Assembly: GCF_030930995.1 (NCBI RefSeq) | Contig: NZ_CP133217.1 | Location: 1,912,001-1,976,000 of the forward strand | DNA from: Thiothrix subterranea | GTDB taxonomy: Bacteria > Pseudomonadota > Gammaproteobacteria > Thiotrichales > Thiotrichaceae | Direction: 5' to 3' | DNA: 64,000 nt | In this document: positions 554 through 39,034 of the stretch, in pieces | Position numbering within the stretch: the first letter of the stretch is position 1 | Layout: each line of letters starts with the position of its first letter | The notes under the pieces: model-generated | Told to the model about the DNA's origin: nothing | The model's input: the letters and a program-made list of their open reading frames with translations, nothing else | Databases searched by the model: none | Translations under genes and position numbers: made by a program

Positions 554-1249
554 ATGAAAAAAATTACCGTTAGTATTTCTGCTTTGTTCTTAGCGCTGGG
601 CGTTCTGAGCGGCTGCGGCGAGAAAAAAGAAGAAGCGCCGAAAGCGGAAGCACCTGCTGCTGAGCAAAAGCCTGCTGAACAAGTTGCTCAACCCGCAGCG
701 CCCGCCGCAGAACCTGCACCAGCCGCTACCCCAGCAGTAGCAGCGGCTGACCCAGCCGTGATGCCTAACCCAATGACGGCGATGACCGATGCGGCTAAAG
801 CTGCCGGTGATGCGGTTGCACAAGCGGCTGATTCCACCACGCAAGCAGTGGGTGATGCAGCCAAAGCCGTGGGCGATACCGCTACTAAAGCGGCGGATGC
901 TACCACGCAGGCAGTAGGCGATGCGGCTCAAGCCGTGGGCGATACTGCTGCTAAAGCGGCGGATGCGACCACTGAAGCGGCAGCAGGCGCAGTAGCAGCG
1001 GCTGGCGCGGTTGACGGCGAAAAAGTTTACAAAGGTCTGTGCTTCAGTTGCCATGACATGGGGATTGCTGGTTCACCTAAGTTGGGTGATAAAGCGGCAT
1101 GGGCGCCACGTATCGCAACCGGTATGGACGCTTTGTACACCTCTTCTTTGAATGGTAAAGGTGCGATGCCAGCAAAAGGCGGCAACCCAGCACTGGCTGA
1201 TGCAGAAGTGAAAGCAGCCGTTGATTGGATGGTTGCCCAAGCAAAGTAA
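554..1249 (+). CDS. c5-type cytochrome c lipoprotein with tandem 22-residue repeats
   Basis: 231 residues. Residues 1-20 form a signal peptide ending in the lipobox LSGC, so Cys21 would be lipidated. Residues 25-75 are Ala/Pro/Glu-rich. Residues 81-146 are three 22-residue Ala-rich repeats (AVGDAAKAVGD type) that read as two 11-mers each, as in LEA-like amphipathic helices. The C-terminal domain (about 153-231) carries the haem motif CFSCH (163-167) and a late Met in GKGAMPAKGG, as in the cytochrome c5 family of small class I cytochromes. It is probably a periplasmic membrane-tethered electron carrier on a flexible helical stalk. Its partner is not indicated by the neighbours. The haem domain is nearly identical to the one fused to a TIR domain at 34219-35046. 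Confidence 0.85.
   Translation: MKKITVSISALFLALGVLSGCGEKKEEAPKAEAPAAEQKPAEQVAQPAAPAAEPAPAATPAVAAADPAVMPNPMTAMTDAAKAAGDAVAQAADSTTQAVGDAAKAVGDTATKAADATTQAVGDAAQAVGDTAAKAADATTEAAAGAVAAAGAVDGEKVYKGLCFSCHDMGIAGSPKLGDKAAWAPRIATGMDALYTSSLNGKGAMPAKGGNPALADAEVKAAVDWMVAQAK
794..991 (+). repeat. Three tandem 66-bp coding repeats (22 residues each)
   Basis: Codons 81-102, 103-124 and 125-146 of the cytochrome lipoprotein repeat the pattern A-K/Q-A-x-G-D-T/A-A-x-x-A-A-D-x-T-T-x-A. The second and third units are almost identical. Each unit splits into two 11-residue half-repeats, so the region probably forms a long Ala-rich helix. The number of units may vary between strains. Confidence 0.75.
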
Positions 1250-31901: not shown

Positions 31902-32390
31902 CTACTTCATTAGCGCGTTGGGGATGTTCCATTGGAGTTCCCCAACACCGCTTGTCATGTCGACTTCTAGGCGTATCAATCCGGCTTTTTTGACTTTAAT
32001 ACGGCTGTTAGGGCTGCCTAACAAGTGGGCGATTAAGGTTGAAAATTCCGGTTCATGACCCACCAGCCAAATATTGTTGTCACCGTTTGCGGCTAATGCT
32101 GCCAGTGCTTGCAGCGCGGTTTGGGTATCTGCGCCATGCGCTAACCACGGCACTATGATTGCTTTGGGGCAAGCGGGTAAGTGTTTGCGTAAACCTTGCG
32201 CGGTTTCCAAAGCTCTTACCAGTGGGCTGCACAGCAAGTGGGTGGGAAGTAAGGCGTGGCGTTGGCAAAAGTCGGCAACCCGTTGCGCTTGCTTGTGACC
32301 TTTGGGGGTAAGGCGGCGTGCTTCATCGGGAATCGGCAGATTGTGATCTTCAGCGGTGGCATGGCGTAAAAAAGTCAGTGTGGTTGTCAT
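31902..32390 (-). CDS. sixA: Phosphohistidine phosphatase SixA-like
   Basis: 162 residues from ATG 32390; the longer open frame up to 32972 runs antisense through the MFS gene and is rejected. Histidine-phosphatase motif LTFLRHATAEDH near the start, LLCSPLVRALETAQGL, and a second catalytic His in WLVGHEPEFSTLIAHLLG. SixA removes phosphate from phosphohistidine, for example in phosphorelay or PTS proteins. It overlaps the upstream MFS gene by 4 nt. Confidence 0.88.
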   Translation of the reverse strand: MTTTLTFLRHATAEDHNLPIPDEARRLTPKGHKQAQRVADFCQRHALLPTHLLCSPLVRALETAQGLRKHLPACPKAIIVPWLAHGADTQTALQALAALAANGDNNIWLVGHEPEFSTLIAHLLGSPNSRIKVKKAGLIRLEVDMTSGVGELQWNIPNALMK

Positions 32391-33604
32391 GCTGGTTTTC
32401 GCTGTGAAAATAGAGCGGTGGTGGCGGCTAAGCCGAAAATCAAGAAGCCGCTGATCAGGGGTAATATTGTGCCATCGTAGGCTTGCCCGACAAACGTTCC
32501 TAGCGGAATCGCGATCAGGGTGGATAGCGAGCCGATGACCGATGCGCCAATTCCGGCAATATGCCCCAACGGTTCCATCGCCAGCGCGTTGAGATTGCCG
32601 AATAACATGCCTAATGCCAAAAATGCCAGCATGAAATACGCCATCAACAGCGGCAATGCGGGGTGTCCAGCGCTGTTGTAAGTGACGAACCAAAATGCGC
32701 CTGATAGCAGCGTGAACAGCAGCAATGCCCGCTTTGAAATCCAGTGCATTCCGTAGCGCATTACCAGCTTGGCATTCAGTAACGATGCGCCGCCAATCGC
32801 CAGCGCCAGCAGCGCAAAATACAGCGGGAAACGTTCCCCCAAGCCGTATTGGATTTGCAGGATTTGTTGTGCTGAACTCAAATAGCCGAGAAATGCGCCA
32901 AATACAATGCCGGTGGTGAGGGTGTAGGTCATGCTGATACGGTTGCTGACGACTTCTTTTAGCCCCTGCCAAAATTCACCAAAACGGAAAGCGCGGCGTT
33001 TATCAGTGGCTAGGGTTTCCGGCATTCGCCACCAAAACCATACCGCCACACTAAGCGCCAGCACAAAAAACAGTGTGAAAATACTGCGCCAGCCTGCTAC
33101 AAGCAAAATACCTTGCCCTAATGATGGCGCAATCATTGGCACGAGGATAAAAATACTCATGGTGAATGACATGACCCGCGCCATTGCACGCCCGGAATAG
33201 CAATCGCGCACCAGTGCCATCGTTAACACACGCGGGGCAGATGCGCCGACCCCTTGCAAGAAGCGCCCGATCAGCATGTGCGAAAAGTCTTGCGCGAACA
33301 TTGAGAGCAAACTGCCGAGCATAAAGATGCCCAAGCCCACGTACATTAGCGGCTTACGCCCGGTCGCATCGGATAAGGGGCCGAAAAATACTTGCCCCAG
33401 CGCCAAACCCAGAAATAAGGTGGTGAGGATTAATTGCGCGTCGTTGTCGTGTTGCACGCCCAGTTCGCGTCCGATGGTGACGAGCGCAGGCAGCATGGCA
33501 TCAATCGCCAGCGCGGTTAGGGAAGTGAGCATGGCGATGAGGGCGGCAAATTCGCCGAAGCGGGGGAGGTTGGCTGGCATGTTAGGGGGCGCTGACGTCA
33601 GCAT
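32387..33604 (-). CDS. Bcr/CflA-family multidrug MFS transporter
   Basis: 405 residues from ATG 33604 (an alternative ATG at 33580 sits one base after the upstream gene's stop). Twelve membrane helices. MFS signature QVFFGPLSDATGRKPLMYVG between helices 2 and 3, and the Bcr/CflA pattern AIDAMLPALVTIGRELG with RFLQGVGASAPRVLTMALVRD. A proton-driven exporter of drugs or small metabolites such as dipeptides or sulfonamides. It is probably in an operon with the 170-residue protein upstream and sixA downstream. Confidence 0.9.
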   Translation of the reverse strand: MLTSAPPNMPANLPRFGEFAALIAMLTSLTALAIDAMLPALVTIGRELGVQHDNDAQLILTTLFLGLALGQVFFGPLSDATGRKPLMYVGLGIFMLGSLLSMFAQDFSHMLIGRFLQGVGASAPRVLTMALVRDCYSGRAMARVMSFTMSIFILVPMIAPSLGQGILLVAGWRSIFTLFFVLALSVAVWFWWRMPETLATDKRRAFRFGEFWQGLKEVVSNRISMTYTLTTGIVFGAFLGYLSSAQQILQIQYGLGERFPLYFALLALAIGGASLLNAKLVMRYGMHWISKRALLLFTLLSGAFWFVTYNSAGHPALPLLMAYFMLAFLALGMLFGNLNALAMEPLGHIAGIGASVIGSLSTLIAIPLGTFVGQAYDGTILPLISGFLIFGLAATTALFSQRKPA

Positions 33605-34094
33605 CCGCAGGGCGGATCTCTGCTTGTTCGAGCAGTAATAGCGGGTCTTCTACGCCAGCCATGTCGCCTAACATGGCGGTATAGTTGCGCAAGTTGGCTT
33701 GCAGTTCCGCGAGTTCTTGACGGAATGCGAGACGTTGCACCGAATCATTGAATGCCCCAGAGACTGACGGTTTGTGCCACCGCGCGGTGAAGGGGCGGAT
33801 AATCTGGTTCAGTACCACAATTGCCAGCTTGGTAAATTCCAGGCTATCGCGCCCATGACGTTTGATGATTTCGCGGGTGATCTCAAAGAGTTTATAAATG
33901 CTGTCGAGTGCGGTTTTCTCATCACCGTCTTTGGGGTCGAGCGCTTGGGTGGTGATGCGGGTCAGGAGTTCGATGTACATTTCCCACGCGGCATCTTTGT
34001 CGGCATCGGCAAACTTCAATTCGACGTTGAGAAAGGGTGGGTTGAGTTGCAGGTTGGTCATTTTCCATTTTTTCAGCCAGTCGCGCCAGATCAT
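33582..34094 (-). CDS. Conserved hypothetical protein, helical, 170 residues
   Basis: From ATG 34094 (MIWRDWLKKWKMTNLQLNPP). No signal peptide or membrane helix is visible. It is rich in helix (DKDAAWEMYIELLTRITTQA, ITREIIKRHGRDSLEFTKLA, RLAFRQELAELQANLRNYTA). I cannot place the family. It ends inside the MFS start, so the two are coupled, and it is divergent from the TIR-cytochrome gene with 124 bp between starts, which leaves a shared promoter region. Confidence 0.7.
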   Translation of the reverse strand: MIWRDWLKKWKMTNLQLNPPFLNVELKFADADKDAAWEMYIELLTRITTQALDPKDGDEKTALDSIYKLFEITREIIKRHGRDSLEFTKLAIVVLNQIIRPFTARWHKPSVSGAFNDSVQRLAFRQELAELQANLRNYTAMLGDMAGVEDPLLLLEQAEIRPADADVSAP

Positions 34095-34218
34095 GAGAGT
34101 TCCTTTGGGGTGTTTAATCGTGCTGACAGAATAGCGCAACTGTGTGATTCAAAACATCCCTTTGAGTGGCAATATCGTTTACTATCCGCTTATCAGAAAT
34201 TTGCCATCAGTGATCAGT

Positions 34219-35046
34219 ATGAACGATATTTTTCTCAGCTATTCCACCAAAGACCGTGACCGTTTAAAGCCGTTGTTTCAAGCATTGGCACAGCAGGGCT
34301 GGTCGGTGTTTTGGGATCATCAGTCTATCCACACTGGCGAAAACTGGCATCGCAAGATTGAAGAGGCGATTAATAATAGCCGTTGTGTGGTGGTGGTGTG
34401 GTCAAAGCATTCAATACACTCAGAATGGGTGTTGGAAGAAGCCAGCCGGGGCAAAGCCCGTGACGTGTTGTTGCCGATTAGAATTGATGCGATTGAACCA
34501 CCGTTTGGTTTTGGAATGCGCCAAGCGGGTGATTTCACTGGCTGGAATGGCAAAGGTGATCATCCCGCTTTTATTGAATTGGCGGCGCAGATTTACGGCT
34601 TGTTAGGGCGTGGTTCTCAGCCACTTCCGCCGCCACCGAAATCTAGGCAGGGTGTGGTGTTAGCGGGCGTGACTGCTGTGGCGGTGGCAGGTGGGGGTAT
34701 CTATTTGCAGCAGAATGGCTATTTTACTGGGGAAAATGGGGCGGCGATTGAGCAATCCGTTGCGTCTGTTGCCGAACTCAAGGTTGTGCCTGCACCGGTT
34801 GCTACATTTGACGGTGAAAAAGTTTACAAAGGTCTGTGCTTCAGTTGCCATGACACGGGCGTTGCTGGCTCACCTAAGTTAGGTGATAAAGCTGCATGGT
34901 CACCACGTATCGCTACTGGTAATGATGCACTGTATGCTTCTTCCCTCAATGGTAAAGGTGCAATGCCAGCAAAAGGTGGCAATTCAGCACTGTCTGATGA
35001 AGAAGTTAAAGCAGCGGTTGACTGGATGGTTAGTCAAGCCAAGTAA
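34219..35046 (+). CDS. TIR domain-membrane helix-cytochrome c5 fusion protein
   Basis: 275 residues from ATG 34219 (MNDIFLSYSTKDRDRLKPLF); the longer frame from 34144 adds no family sequence. Residues 1-125 are a bacterial TIR domain: FLSYSTKDRDR, GWSVFWDHQSI, CVVVVWSKHS, and SEWVLEEA with Glu73/Glu74 at the place of the NADase catalytic Glu. A Pro-rich linker (134-144) and one hydrophobic helix (about 145-163) lead to a c5-type haem domain (198-275) with CFSCH at 207-211. Positive residues before the helix predict TIR inside and haem outside. The haem domain has 69 of 78 residues identical to the lipoprotein at 554-1249. It may couple NAD(P) signalling to the periplasmic redox state; this is inference. 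Confidence 0.88.
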   Translation: MNDIFLSYSTKDRDRLKPLFQALAQQGWSVFWDHQSIHTGENWHRKIEEAINNSRCVVVVWSKHSIHSEWVLEEASRGKARDVLLPIRIDAIEPPFGFGMRQAGDFTGWNGKGDHPAFIELAAQIYGLLGRGSQPLPPPPKSRQGVVLAGVTAVAVAGGGIYLQQNGYFTGENGAAIEQSVASVAELKVVPAPVATFDGEKVYKGLCFSCHDTGVAGSPKLGDKAAWSPRIATGNDALYASSLNGKGAMPAKGGNSALSDEEVKAAVDWMVSQAK

Positions 35047-35163
35047 TTCATGACTGAAGTCGAATGGGGCGGCATTTTGCCTAAATCTTGAAATTTCCCC
35101 ACCACATCCGGCTGGTTAATTTCCTGTGCTATCATTGCCCCATACAGCTAGGCAGGAAAACCC

Positions 35164-36855
35164 ATGAAACTCCCCTACGGTGAAAGCAACTTCAAAAAGG
35201 TGATAACTCAAGGCTACACCTACATCGACAAGACGGCTTATATCGCACGTTTGGAAGAAACAGGCAGCCACATTATTCTGCTACGCCCGCGCCGTTTTGG
35301 GAAAAGTTTGTTCCTGTCTGCTTTGTGGCACTATTACGACGTGCATTACCGTGATGAATTTGACACGCTGTTTAGCCAGTTATACATCGGGCAGCACCCC
35401 ACCCCGCTCAAAAGTAGCTACCAAGTGCTGTTCATGGAGTTCAGCGGAATCGGTGTCGAAGGTGGGCGCGGGCAAATTTACCAAGAGTTTGACCGCAAAA
35501 TCGCCCATGCCCTGCAAAAATTCCTCACCCGCTATGGCTACCCTGAGAATACCTTGGCTGGGGTGGAACGCGAACCCTCGCCCCAAACAAAAATGGAGTA
35601 TTTTTTCAGGATCACGGCGGGGCAAAAAATCCTACTGCTGATTGATGAATACGACCACTTTGCCAACACTATTTTGTCGCAAGACCTTAAGCTATTTCAG
35701 GACGTGGTTGGCAGGGGTGGTTTCGTGCGCAGTTTTTACGAAACCATCAAAACCGCCACGCTGACGGGCACGGTAGACCGCTTGTTCATCACGGGTGTGA
35801 CCCCGCTGATGCTTGACAGCATGACTAGCGGTTTTAACATTGGTGAAAACATCTCCCTACATGAAGATTTCAATAGTGCCGTAGGCTTCACCCCAACCGA
35901 AGTAGCCAGCCTGCTACAGCCCCTTACGAAGCTTTGCCAGCTTGATGACGAAGCACTGCTGGCGGATGTGCGGCGTTGGTACAATGGCTACCGTTTCAAT
36001 GCACAAGCGGAAGAAACCGTTTACAACCCCAATATGGTGCTGTATTTCCTGAAAAATTTTCGAGTTAAGGATTGCAGCTATCCCGAACAAATGCTGGATG
36101 AAAATATCGCCTCGGATTATGGCAAAATTATGGGGATGTTCAGCATCGGCAACCGTGACACCAATTTTGCTGTTTTGGACGACATTATCAACATAGGCGA
36201 AGTGACCGCGCCGCAACGACGCAAATTTGAGTTTGAAAAGGGCTTTGATCGTGATGATTTCATCAGCTTGCTGGCCTACATGGGATTTGTGTCATTACAA
36301 CGAAAAACCCTGTCTGGTGATGTGTTCAGCATTCCCAACCACGCCATTCAGGAGTTGTACTTCCACTATTTCAAGGTCGAGTTGGAACGCCGTAACCAAA
36401 TCTGCATTCCCAGCAATACTTTGTTGCAAGCGGTAGAAGCCTTGGCATTGCATGATGACATCCAACCGCTGGCAACGGAAATGCAGCGGGTCATGCAAGT
36501 ACTGTCCAACCGTGATTTCAGCAATATGGACGAAAAGCACGTTAAAACCTTGGCATTGACCTTGTTGTACCAATCTTCGGTGTATTTTATCCAGAGCGAG
36601 CGGGAAATGAACCACAAGTATCCCGACATTCTGTTATTGGAGCGTAGCCCTTATGTGGTCAACTATCAGCACCTGATCGAGTTAAAATATGCCAAACGGG
36701 GTGATGGTGAAAAAGGTTGGGAAGCCAAACGGCAGGAGGGTATCAAACAAGTACAGGGCTATTTACAGTTACCAGAAGTTGCCGCTTTGCCCAAACTCAG
36801 CGCATGGGTGCTACTGGCAAATGGGGAGCGTGTCGATGCCATAAAGGTATCATGA
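35164..36855 (+). CDS. AAA-ATPase-like/PD-(D/E)XK nuclease family protein
   Basis: 563 residues. The N-terminal AAA_9-like domain starts KLPYGESNFKKVITQGYTYI, continues YIDKTAYIARLE, has P-loop-like RPRRFGKSLFLSAL and Walker B-like ILLLIDEYDHFA, and sensor-like RLFITGVTPLML. The C-terminal domain resembles DUF1703/PD-(D/E)XK (RSPYVVNYQHLIELKYAKRG with Glu-x-Lys). The family is expanded in Bacteroidetes and in large sulfur bacteria and is of unknown function. It converges on recG and follows the TIR fusion by 117 bp. Confidence 0.85.
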   Translation: MKLPYGESNFKKVITQGYTYIDKTAYIARLEETGSHIILLRPRRFGKSLFLSALWHYYDVHYRDEFDTLFSQLYIGQHPTPLKSSYQVLFMEFSGIGVEGGRGQIYQEFDRKIAHALQKFLTRYGYPENTLAGVEREPSPQTKMEYFFRITAGQKILLLIDEYDHFANTILSQDLKLFQDVVGRGGFVRSFYETIKTATLTGTVDRLFITGVTPLMLDSMTSGFNIGENISLHEDFNSAVGFTPTEVASLLQPLTKLCQLDDEALLADVRRWYNGYRFNAQAEETVYNPNMVLYFLKNFRVKDCSYPEQMLDENIASDYGKIMGMFSIGNRDTNFAVLDDIINIGEVTAPQRRKFEFEKGFDRDDFISLLAYMGFVSLQRKTLSGDVFSIPNHAIQELYFHYFKVELERRNQICIPSNTLLQAVEALALHDDIQPLATEMQRVMQVLSNRDFSNMDEKHVKTLALTLLYQSSVYFIQSEREMNHKYPDILLLERSPYVVNYQHLIELKYAKRGDGEKGWEAKRQEGIKQVQGYLQLPEVAALPKLSAWVLLANGERVDAIKVS

Positions 36856-36859
36856 AGCA

Positions 36860-39034
36860 TCAACTCTGGAAAAACTGCGTAGCCGTTTCCCCATCCGGCT
36901 GCTGCAACCAACGTTGCGTCAACGCTTCCACCCGCTCTGGGTAATGCGCCACCACCTCTCGCGCGGCTGTTTGCACCGCTGGCAGCAAATGCTGATCGCG
37001 CAGCAAACTCGCAATCCGCAGCCGCACATCCCCCGTCTGGCGCGTTCCCAACACCTCGCCGGGGCCGCGCAATTCCAAATCAATATCCGCAATCATGAAA
37101 CCATCGGTAGTAGTGCGCATCGCATCCAGCCGTTTCCGCGCCGTTTTGCCCAGCGGATGCTGGTAAAGCAGCACGCAACTACTCGCCACACTGCCGCGCC
37201 CAACCCGTCCACGCAACTGATGCAATTGCGACAAACCCATACGCTCGGCATTTTCGATCACCATCAAGGACGCATTCGGCACATCCACCCCCACCTCAAT
37301 CACCGTCGTTGCCACCAAAAGCTGGATTTCCCCCAATTTGAACTGACGCATGATGCTCTCCTTTTCCGAACCGTGCAGCCGCCCATGTACCAGCCCCACC
37401 GCAACGTGTGGCAAACGTTCGTGCAACATCGCCGCAGTGACTTCCGCCGCTTCACATTGCAAGGCTTCCGACTCTTCGATCAGCGTGCAAACCCAATACA
37501 CCTGCCGACCTTCGCGGCACGCGGCGGAAATACGCTCAATCACTTCATCGCGGCGCTCATTATTCAGGGCTACGGTGGTGATCGGCGTGCGCCCTGGCGG
37601 TAATTCATCAATCACCGAATAATCCAGATCGCCGTAAGCGGTCATTGCCAAGGTGCGCGGAATCGGTGTCGCCGTCATCACCAACTGGTGCGGGTAATGG
37701 TCGCCTTGCTTGCCTTTTTCGCGCAAGGCCATGCGCTGATGCACGCCAAAACGGTGCTGTTCGTCGATAATGATCAGCCCCAGTTGCAGGAATTCCACCG
37801 TGCGCTGGAACAAAGCGTGTGTGCCGACCGCGATATGCCCGATGCCCAGCAGCAAATTTTCCACCTTGCGGCGGCGTTGGCGTGGGGTTTGATTGCCGGA
37901 AATGTACACGGTTTCCACCCCCAACGGTTCGAGCCAGCGCACAAGGTTTTGGTAATGCTGTTCCGCCAGCAATTCGGTGGGAGCCATGAGCGCGACTTGG
38001 AAACCATTGGCAATCGCGTGTAACGCTGCGGCAACGGCAACCAGCGTTTTGCCCGAACCGACATCGCCTTGCACCAAGCGATTCATCGGCACTGTTTGTT
38101 GCAAATCGGTGGTAATTTCCGCAATCACGCGATTTTGTGCGTCCGTCGGAGCAAACGGCAAGGTACGCAGCAATTGCTGCCAGTAGTGGTTGGTTTCTGG
38201 CATGGTGTGCGCTTGCACTTGCTTGAGTTCGTGCCGCGCTTGTTGCACACCGAGTTGATGCGCAAGCAATTCCTCGAAAATCAAGCGACGGGAAAATATC
38301 TCAAGATTAAAAGAAACCCCTCCCGGCCTCCCCTTATCAGGGGAGGAGGAAGAAAGCGCGGCATCTCTTACTCCCTCCCTTGATAAGGGGAGGGTTGGGG
38401 AGGGGTTTCCCTGCGGTGTATGCAACATCCGCACACATTGCGCCAACGGCGGAAAACGGTGTTGCTTAACCACGCTTTCCGGCAATAAATCGGGCAATTC
38501 CTCCACATGTTCCAACGCCAAATCAATCAAGCGGCGTAGGCTACGTTGCTGCAAACCTTCAGTCGTGGGGTAAGTCGGCGTCAGTGTGTTCGCAATCGGT
38601 TCGTGTTCATCGGCTTTGAGGTAATGGCATTCGGGGTGTGCCATTTCCAGCTTCATCCCGGATTGGCGCACTTCACCAAAACAGCGCAGCAACACGCCTT
38701 TACGCAAGCTGTATTTCTGGGCGGAGGTGAAGTGGAAAAAGCGTAAGATTAAGGTGCCGCTGCCATCGTTGAGGTAGCACAGCAACATGGTGCGCCCGCG
38801 TTGCACCACTTCGGCGTATTCGATTTCACCTTCAACCAGCACCTCCTGCCCGACTTTGAGGCTGGCGATGGGGTAAATGCGGGTGCGATCCTGATAGCGC
38901 AGCGGCAAATGAAACAGCAAATCTGCCACACGCAAAATGCCTAGCCGTACCAATTTTTCCGCCACCGCATCACCCACCCCACGCAAGGCGGTCACAGGTT
39001 GCTGTAAAAAATCGGGTTCGGCTGCTTCAGTCAT
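36860..39034 (-). CDS. recG: ATP-dependent DNA helicase RecG, with in-frame insertion
   Basis: 724 residues. The wedge/OB domain (LFHLPLRYQDRTRIYPIASL) is followed by helicase motifs: NRLVQGDVGSGKTLVAVAAA, DEQHRFGVHQR, VMTATPIPRTLAMTAYGDLD, ATTVIEVGVDVPNASLMVIE and QLHQLRGRVGRG. RecG remodels stalled forks and Holliday junctions. Between CVRMLHTPQG and SRRLIFEELLAHQL is a low-complexity stretch (NPSPTLPLSREGV ... SSSSPDKGRPGGVS) not expected in RecG, encoded by a palindromic element. The motifs are otherwise complete. Confidence 0.95.
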   Translation of the reverse strand: MTEAAEPDFLQQPVTALRGVGDAVAEKLVRLGILRVADLLFHLPLRYQDRTRIYPIASLKVGQEVLVEGEIEYAEVVQRGRTMLLCYLNDGSGTLILRFFHFTSAQKYSLRKGVLLRCFGEVRQSGMKLEMAHPECHYLKADEHEPIANTLTPTYPTTEGLQQRSLRRLIDLALEHVEELPDLLPESVVKQHRFPPLAQCVRMLHTPQGNPSPTLPLSREGVRDAALSSSSPDKGRPGGVSFNLEIFSRRLIFEELLAHQLGVQQARHELKQVQAHTMPETNHYWQQLLRTLPFAPTDAQNRVIAEITTDLQQTVPMNRLVQGDVGSGKTLVAVAAALHAIANGFQVALMAPTELLAEQHYQNLVRWLEPLGVETVYISGNQTPRQRRRKVENLLLGIGHIAVGTHALFQRTVEFLQLGLIIIDEQHRFGVHQRMALREKGKQGDHYPHQLVMTATPIPRTLAMTAYGDLDYSVIDELPPGRTPITTVALNNERRDEVIERISAACREGRQVYWVCTLIEESEALQCEAAEVTAAMLHERLPHVAVGLVHGRLHGSEKESIMRQFKLGEIQLLVATTVIEVGVDVPNASLMVIENAERMGLSQLHQLRGRVGRGSVASSCVLLYQHPLGKTARKRLDAMRTTTDGFMIADIDLELRGPGEVLGTRQTGDVRLRIASLLRDQHLLPAVQTAAREVVAHYPERVEALTQRWLQQPDGETATQFFQS
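38313..38409. repeat. Palindromic element inserted in frame in recG
   Basis: About 97 bp. GAAACCCCTCCC at 38313-38324 pairs with GGAGGGGTTTC at 38399-38409. Internal hairpin arms use CTCCCCTTATCAGGGGAGG at one side and CTCCCTTGATAAGGGGAGGG at the other. The recG frame stays open and reads Pro/Ser/Gly-rich. Same architecture as 14003-14104 and 22261-22365. Confidence 0.82.

Follow-up and report, generated by a model that had tools for sequence, protein, structure and literature searches.

A c5-type cytochrome as the outer domain of a predicted membrane-anchored TIR protein in Thiothrix subterranea

A single gene in Thiothrix subterranea joins a TIR domain, by way of one predicted membrane helix, to a c5-type cytochrome c domain, and lies within the 64,000-nucleotide stretch of DNA analysed here (referred to as the window; Table 1). 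The protein is most plausibly a membrane-anchored, single-pass TIR receptor with a cytochrome c outer domain, a reading held with moderate confidence, in which a change in the haem domain would cluster the chains and switch on NAD+ cleavage.

The gene runs from an ATG (34219) to a TAA (35046) as one stop-free frame of 275 amino acids, and translation, Pfam and hydropathy upheld the coordinates, the single frame and the TIR-helix-haem domain order given in a preliminary description made from the DNA letters. The TIR_2 score of 87.8 bits against a cut-off of 28 places the first half in the TIR family, and its nearest solved TIR structures by sequence include AbTIR, TcpB and 3h16, the last of which we take to be PdTIR. 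In the alignment, Trp70 and Glu74 stand opposite the W-x-x-x-E of AbTIR, whose glutamate is presumably the catalytic residue, so that the WxxxE signature of TIR NADases is present by sequence. Among 32 aligned family rows from the matches listed, gaps ignored, the Glu74 column is invariant and that of Trp70 nearly so. The preliminary description had named Glu73/Glu74 for a test of NADase activity; this invariance extends to Glu74 and not to Glu73. NADase activity of the TIR half is predicted on these grounds. The second half scores 59.2 bits for Cytochrome_CBB3 (cut-off 27) and carries both a CxxCH motif and a distal Met, as expected of class I (c5-type) cytochromes c, and the nearest solved haem proteins by sequence are cytochromes c-556, c551, c-555 and c5. 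The only hydrophobic segment, residues 145-163 (Kyte-Doolittle mean 1.9), is preceded by three Lys/Arg residues and followed by none, a charge bias that agrees with the earlier prediction of a cytoplasmic TIR and a periplasmic haem domain; export of the haem half is predicted by this bias, and its covalent haem loading is putative. An AlphaFold2 model of the protein was weak (12 alignment rows, mean pLDDT 56.5, pTM 0.37), with pLDDT values of 71-91 across the cytochrome and 44-65 across the TIR, where the beta/alpha pattern was visible, and below 35 in the Gly/Ala-rich membrane stretch, which was not drawn as a helix.

Table 1. Features of the fusion gene and its surroundings (positions are those of the window unless a locus is named).
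Feature	Position	Strand	Basis or remark
TIR-membrane helix-cytochrome c fusion gene	34219..35046	+	275 aa; translation and Pfam
TIR domain, residues 4-111	34228..34551	+	Pfam TIR_2, E 1e-24
Glu74, putative catalytic glutamate	34438..34440	+	invariant in 32-row alignment; opposite AbTIR WxxxE Glu
Membrane helix, residues 145-163, after Pro-rich stretch and KSR	34651..34707	+	hydropathy 1.9
c5-type monohaem cytochrome c domain, residues 198-270	34810..35028	+	Pfam Cytochrome_CBB3, E 4.9e-16; PDB relatives
CFSCH haem-attachment motif, residues 207-211, His211 ligand	34837..34851	+	sequence position
Met249 (Met of GAMPAKGG), expected sixth haem ligand	34963..34965	+	putative ligand role, from family
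Junction: TIR-helix-linker DNA ends, cytochrome DNA begins	34797..34808	+	identity switch within ~10 bp, from T. fructosivorans locus L047 to c5 gene
c5 cytochrome gene, among nearest relatives of haem half	554..1249	+	85% DNA identity; lipoprotein-like N-terminus by eye
Conserved 5' leader, core 34176-34194	34171..34218	+	common to other Thiothrix TIR genes
small185, divergent neighbour, uncharacterised family	33582..34139	-	TIR gene adjacent at 10/12 inspected loci
AAA-ATPase_like/PDDEXK_9 gene, downstream	35164..36855	+	Pfam; many copies across genus
35 bp copy of recG 3' end	L047 9107-9141 and 14597-14633; window 36864-36898		

The family to which this protein belongs was delineated from the TIR rows among the matches listed in an order-level search, giving the window protein and 31 relatives, a set from which 13 of the 16 TIR_2 places of its own genome are absent. 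Pfam matched TIR_2 in 31 of these 32 proteins (relatives among the matches listed), and the domains found beside it, with the same scope, were FGE (10), Lcl_C (5), Sel1 (2), DUF4384 (2), protein kinase (2), SH3 (1) and cytochrome (1), nine proteins having TIR without a further Pfam domain. A membrane helix, defined as a segment with hydropathy of at least 1.2 anywhere after residue 110, was found in 26/32 of the proteins among the matches listed and in none of the other 6; in 22 of the 26 the positive charge was greater on the TIR side, the remaining 4, T. lacustris included, being ties. The commonest ectodomains, FGE or Lcl_C (15/32 among the matches listed), are absent from the fusion protein, which has a cytochrome instead; since the ectodomain slot varies across the family, these domains were not counted as defining membership, and the fusion protein belongs by virtue of a closely similar TIR and helix region, a common leader and the same locus. 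The haem is confined to the window protein, CxxCH being absent from the other 31 relatives among the matches listed. The picture that emerges from these sequences is of a TIR and an outer domain that can be exchanged, most commonly of lectin fold, with a single helix joining the two. At one locus (L086 9959-11646, genome G048) a TIR-helix-FGE gene is split over two frames and is a probable pseudogene or sequencing error.

The search for the joined TIR-membrane helix-cytochrome arrangement that the preliminary description had proposed returned no second such gene among the matches listed. The own gene was the only whole-length match among those listed in 63 genomes of the order, with all candidates scored, and in 369 genomes of the class, with at most 6 candidates scored per genome; it was likewise the only one in 398 genomes of the phylum, with up to 6 candidates scored within an E limit of 1e-25, and no other whole-length match appeared in 48 genomes of one other class (E limit 1e-22), these genome sets overlapping one another. 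A joined TIR-cytochrome gene should rank high in those match lists. Coverage of 80% of the query was reached by 0 of 28 matching plasmid records and by 0 of 1 matching phage record, and 0 of 11 GTDB loci, all from close relatives, matched both halves. The earlier statement that no TIR with a haem c had been described also held among the matches listed from open-licence papers, where no TIR-cytochrome c protein was described; in the retrieved excerpts of PMC10158934, 'TIR domain' and 'c-type cytochrome' are both present and not joined. Because the C-terminal domains vary among relatives, haem occurs here only and no other joined gene was found, the cytochrome is interpreted as an ectodomain new to a TIR family that is modular and receptor-like.

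At the DNA level the gene is a mosaic. Positions 33647-34801 are collinear with T. fructosivorans (locus L047; 82.5% identity over 1161 bp), whose partner gene is of the TIR-helix-FGE type and ends in PEGA and FGE, whereas 34808-35046, up to the stop codon, has 85% identity over 239 bp to positions 1011-1249 of a c5 gene 33 kb upstream in the window. An assembly or sequencing chimera could explain why the fusion is present in one genome only, and the preliminary description had held that homologues each lacking one of the two domains would point to such an error. Every homologue among the matches listed indeed covers one half only, yet the error did not follow: the closest copies in the genome are at 85% DNA identity for the haem half and 77% for the TIR half, with nothing nearer, so that neither half has a near-identical source, the frame is single, and the assembly (4.41 Mb, 2 contigs) is 100% complete and 1.12% contaminated. 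The chimera was rejected on this divergence of both pieces from the own-genome copies, and its probability is negligible. Both segments differ by 15-18% from the sequences nearest to them, and synonymous changes are in excess in the haem half, which indicates that the fusion gene is an old natural recombinant that arose by local fusion.

Over 73 codons the haem half has 86-89% protein identity to the four free relatives closest to it, and the corresponding pairwise dN/dS values are 0.127-0.139 (0.127 to the c5 gene of the window); the TIR half gave 0.078 against T. fructosivorans. The haem-domain comparison started from 106 matches, less 24 gapped and 5 short ones; 64 rows were left after removal of identical rows and of rows with ambiguous bases or stops, and the tree was built from the 40 nearest, with weak deep support. 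Three-taxon distances with 4 near relatives and 5 outgroups assigned to the fused branch of the haem half a mean of ~0.26 synonymous and 0.047 non-synonymous substitutions per site, a ratio of ~0.18, which is poorly bounded, as 300 codon bootstraps, for which 2 of these relatives and 3 of these outgroups were used, gave a median of 0.23 and a range of 0.07-1.41, with 3.7% at or above 1. On these ratios, purifying selection on the haem half is likely. Third-position GC (GC3) was 0.316 in the haem half, below both the c5 domain at 1011-1246 (0.443) and the TIR half (0.515).

Two further explanations can be set beside the receptor reading. The first is an accidental fusion, in which recombination cost a TIR-helix gene its ectodomain and left it with a stray cytochrome end that supplies a stop codon and a soluble tail only. 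Its occurrence in a single genome among the matches listed, the other TIR gene held in the slot by the sister genome G060 and the width of the dN/dS interval all speak for such an accident, but over the ~0.26 synonymous substitutions per site of the fused branch no stop or indel has arisen, CxxCH and Met249 are both still there, and the mean dN/dS is the low one given above, so that we regard it as rather improbable. The second is a membrane-tethered electron carrier, in which the function lies in the cytochrome, sulfur oxidation being one candidate role, and the TIR is inactive or serves only as an anchor. Thiothrix is a sulfur-oxidising genus, the c5 domain is intact and the genome has 19 Cytochrome_CBB3 places, 15 of them over the cut-off; against this, Glu74 and the TIR core are kept, the pairwise dN/dS is low and it is the TIR, not the haem, that the relatives have in common, which leaves the carrier very unlikely.

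TIR genes from different species and from separate loci have a conserved stretch of ~48 bp directly upstream of the start codon. A 19-base core of this leader, searched with at most 2 mismatches, was matched 32 times, in 14 of the 16 genomes of the genus, against 9 times for a reversed control pattern, and at 13 of the 21 matches inspected (of the 32) a TIR gene starts 42-45 nt downstream of it, which was not so at the other 8. Leader and TIR thus seem to travel as one cassette or to be kept alike by common regulation. The leader was seen ~43 nt before the start codon of Thiothrix TIR genes at L161, L162, L165, L169, L181, L182 and other loci, and those at L165 and L182 are TIR genes of a different type, which hints that TIR genes form a regulon or that the 5' cassette is mobile.

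Around the fusion gene the order is MFS transporter, divergent small185, fusion gene, AAA-ATPase-like gene, RecG, AceK and IDH (RecG and MFS by Pfam). The T. lacustris locus reads prs-pth-ychF-MFS-small185-TIR-RecG-AceK-IDH, as in the window except for the TIR-RecG interval (prs, pth and ychF are our presumed assignments at both loci), and its TIR-helix gene ends in an FGE-sulfatase-like, lectin-fold domain. The TIR-helix-PEGA-FGE gene of T. fructosivorans adjoins small185 with RecG-AceK-IDH downstream, and an MFS gene was not found in the part of that locus viewed. In G060, the nearest sister genome, the same slot is occupied by another kind of TIR gene, between flanking proteins that are 93-100% identical. 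Across the 8 loci at which the MFS and RecG flanks are both visible, a TIR gene is present in 3 (window, T. lacustris and G060) and in none of the other 5. What lies between MFS and RecG varies across the genus (window 32387-39034; L049, L085, L089, L090, L092, L095 and L097); elsewhere than at the TIR genes there are short genes that look like Uma2, as checked by Pfam for the one at L049. In T. fructosivorans, 35 bp from the 3' end of recG recur as a copy in the 3' end of the small185 gene, possibly a recombination scar. The downstream AAA-ATPase_like/PDDEXK_9 gene was considered as a partner, which is unlikely because of its many scattered copies in the genus, and it probably lies outside the system.

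The divergent neighbour, small185, had no Pfam, NCBIfam or PADLOC match and represents a family of ~160-190 aa proteins in Pseudomonadota and Cyanobacteriota, with relatives in 5 of the 63 genomes of the order, 5 of the 369 of the class (its own included) and 11 plasmid records. Twelve loci were inspected (the window, L047, L049, L086, L094, L155, L156, L157, L158 and the plasmid loci L143, L144 and L145, these being 3 of the 11 plasmid records), and four of the ten with an adjacent TIR gene are from Thiothrix; no TIR gene lies beside small185 at L094, and the L157 locus ends at a contig end. In Photobacterium a TIR gene starts 13 bp downstream of the small185 relative, in Mesorhizobium the relative is fused to a patatin phospholipase amid TIR genes, and in Calothrix the homologue lies directly upstream of a TIR protein annotated as GUN4, while relatives in G202 and G104 stand beside ThsB_TIR genes and that in G383 beside a TIR with SLOG. 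At L158 (5485-7740) a TIR-SLOG cluster2 fusion protein overlaps a distant small185 homologue. The chance that a random point of the T. subterranea chromosome has a TIR place within 2.5 kb is 0.017, a rough yardstick that derives from one genome and is applied to Thiothrix loci that are not independent. From this genomic association small185 is likely to be an unnamed partner of TIR proteins, and it may act with, or regulate, the TIR of the fusion protein.

Several known systems offer partial likenesses. AbTIR, TcpB and 3h16 resemble the first half in being TIRs by sequence, and for AbTIR the glutamate of WxxxE also falls in register; to our knowledge none of the three has a membrane helix or a haem domain. 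With Thoeris (ThsB/ThsA) the fusion protein has in common a weak ThsB_TIR match, and small185 relatives occur beside ThsB_TIR genes; it differs in its membrane anchor and haem, and no ThsA-like gene was found among the neighbours inspected (small185, AAA-ATPase_like/PDDEXK_9, RecG, AceK, IDH and MFS). A STALD search of the genome gave no match, its control being equally silent. The gene annotated GUN4 at L145 starts with a TIR; GUN4 has a different fold and is not known to carry covalent haem, and the haem c of the fusion protein is predicted to lie outside the membrane, in contrast to the cyanobacterial GUN4-TIR proteins. The likeness to these proteins is a TIR tied to a tetrapyrrole-binding domain, with the small185 homologue upstream in Calothrix, and, in the text retrieved from PMC7159879, GUN4, found with TIR among other domains, is proposed as a tetrapyrrole sensor reporting metabolic state. 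TIR and FGE-type domains occur in surveys of conflict systems and DGR targets, according to the retrieved portions of PMC7159879 and PMC10907252, the latter proposing the lectin-fold (FGE) domain as the sensor; FGE is also the commonest partner in the present relatives (10/32 among the matches listed), whereas the fusion protein has a single helix link and a cytochrome c in the slot. As far as these sources go, TIR and FGE-type domains in conflict systems are already published and the haem c ectodomain on a TIR-helix protein is new.

In the receptor reading, the TIR would face the cytoplasm and the haem the periplasm, and a change in the haem domain, be it in oxidation state, through a docked partner or by damage, would change, by way of the single helix, how the chains cluster. 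TIRs brought together in this manner may then cleave NAD+ through Glu74, with the result that the cell is stalled or killed, or that a nucleotide signal is made. The input could be redox state, a small ligand, a docking partner or, if the domain is a decoy, an attacker of cytochromes. Some observations point against this reading: the fusion is known from one genome, the fused-branch dN/dS is loosely bounded, AlphaFold2 did not draw the helix, the TIR gene that G060 has at the locus is a different one, the haem half is low in GC3, and among the matches listed 6/32 relatives are without a helix and 9/32 without an extra domain.

Plant NLR receptors carry integrated domains as decoys, and by analogy the haem half could be a c5 copy that serves as bait, such that a phage product or a rival's toxin directed at periplasmic cytochromes, to bind or to damage them, would hit the copy and trigger the TIR. 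The haem half is closest to c5 genes of its own genus, one of them in the window, the C-terminal slot has been exchanged over evolution and the gene occupies the variable MFS-RecG slot, all of which fits a decoy; no attacker is known, the haem half bears no sign of fast change, and local copying of a domain is also the easiest accident, so that a decoy is possible but on the unlikely side. The origin of the haem half from the genus's own c5 genes is equally compatible with a sensor and with a decoy. A more specific form, to be entertained only tentatively, would be a bacterial equivalent of plant receptors with an integrated decoy, in which the c5 copy guards the periplasmic electron-transfer chain and works with the widespread small185 partner. 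For the receptor reading as favoured here, the comparison suggests that a lectin-like outer domain was replaced by a copy of a cytochrome c of the same genus, and that this copy watches the outer side of the membrane or baits attackers there.

The exchange of an outer domain in a receptor-like TIR family is thus visible once at a shared locus, with the junction resolved to ~10 bp, and it has placed a haem protein where the sensor should be. This opens the direct question of whether a periplasmic cytochrome, by its state or on being damaged, may switch a cytoplasmic NAD+-consuming enzyme. In addition, small185 emerges as an uncharacterised candidate partner for TIR proteins in distant bacteria and deserves a name of its own.
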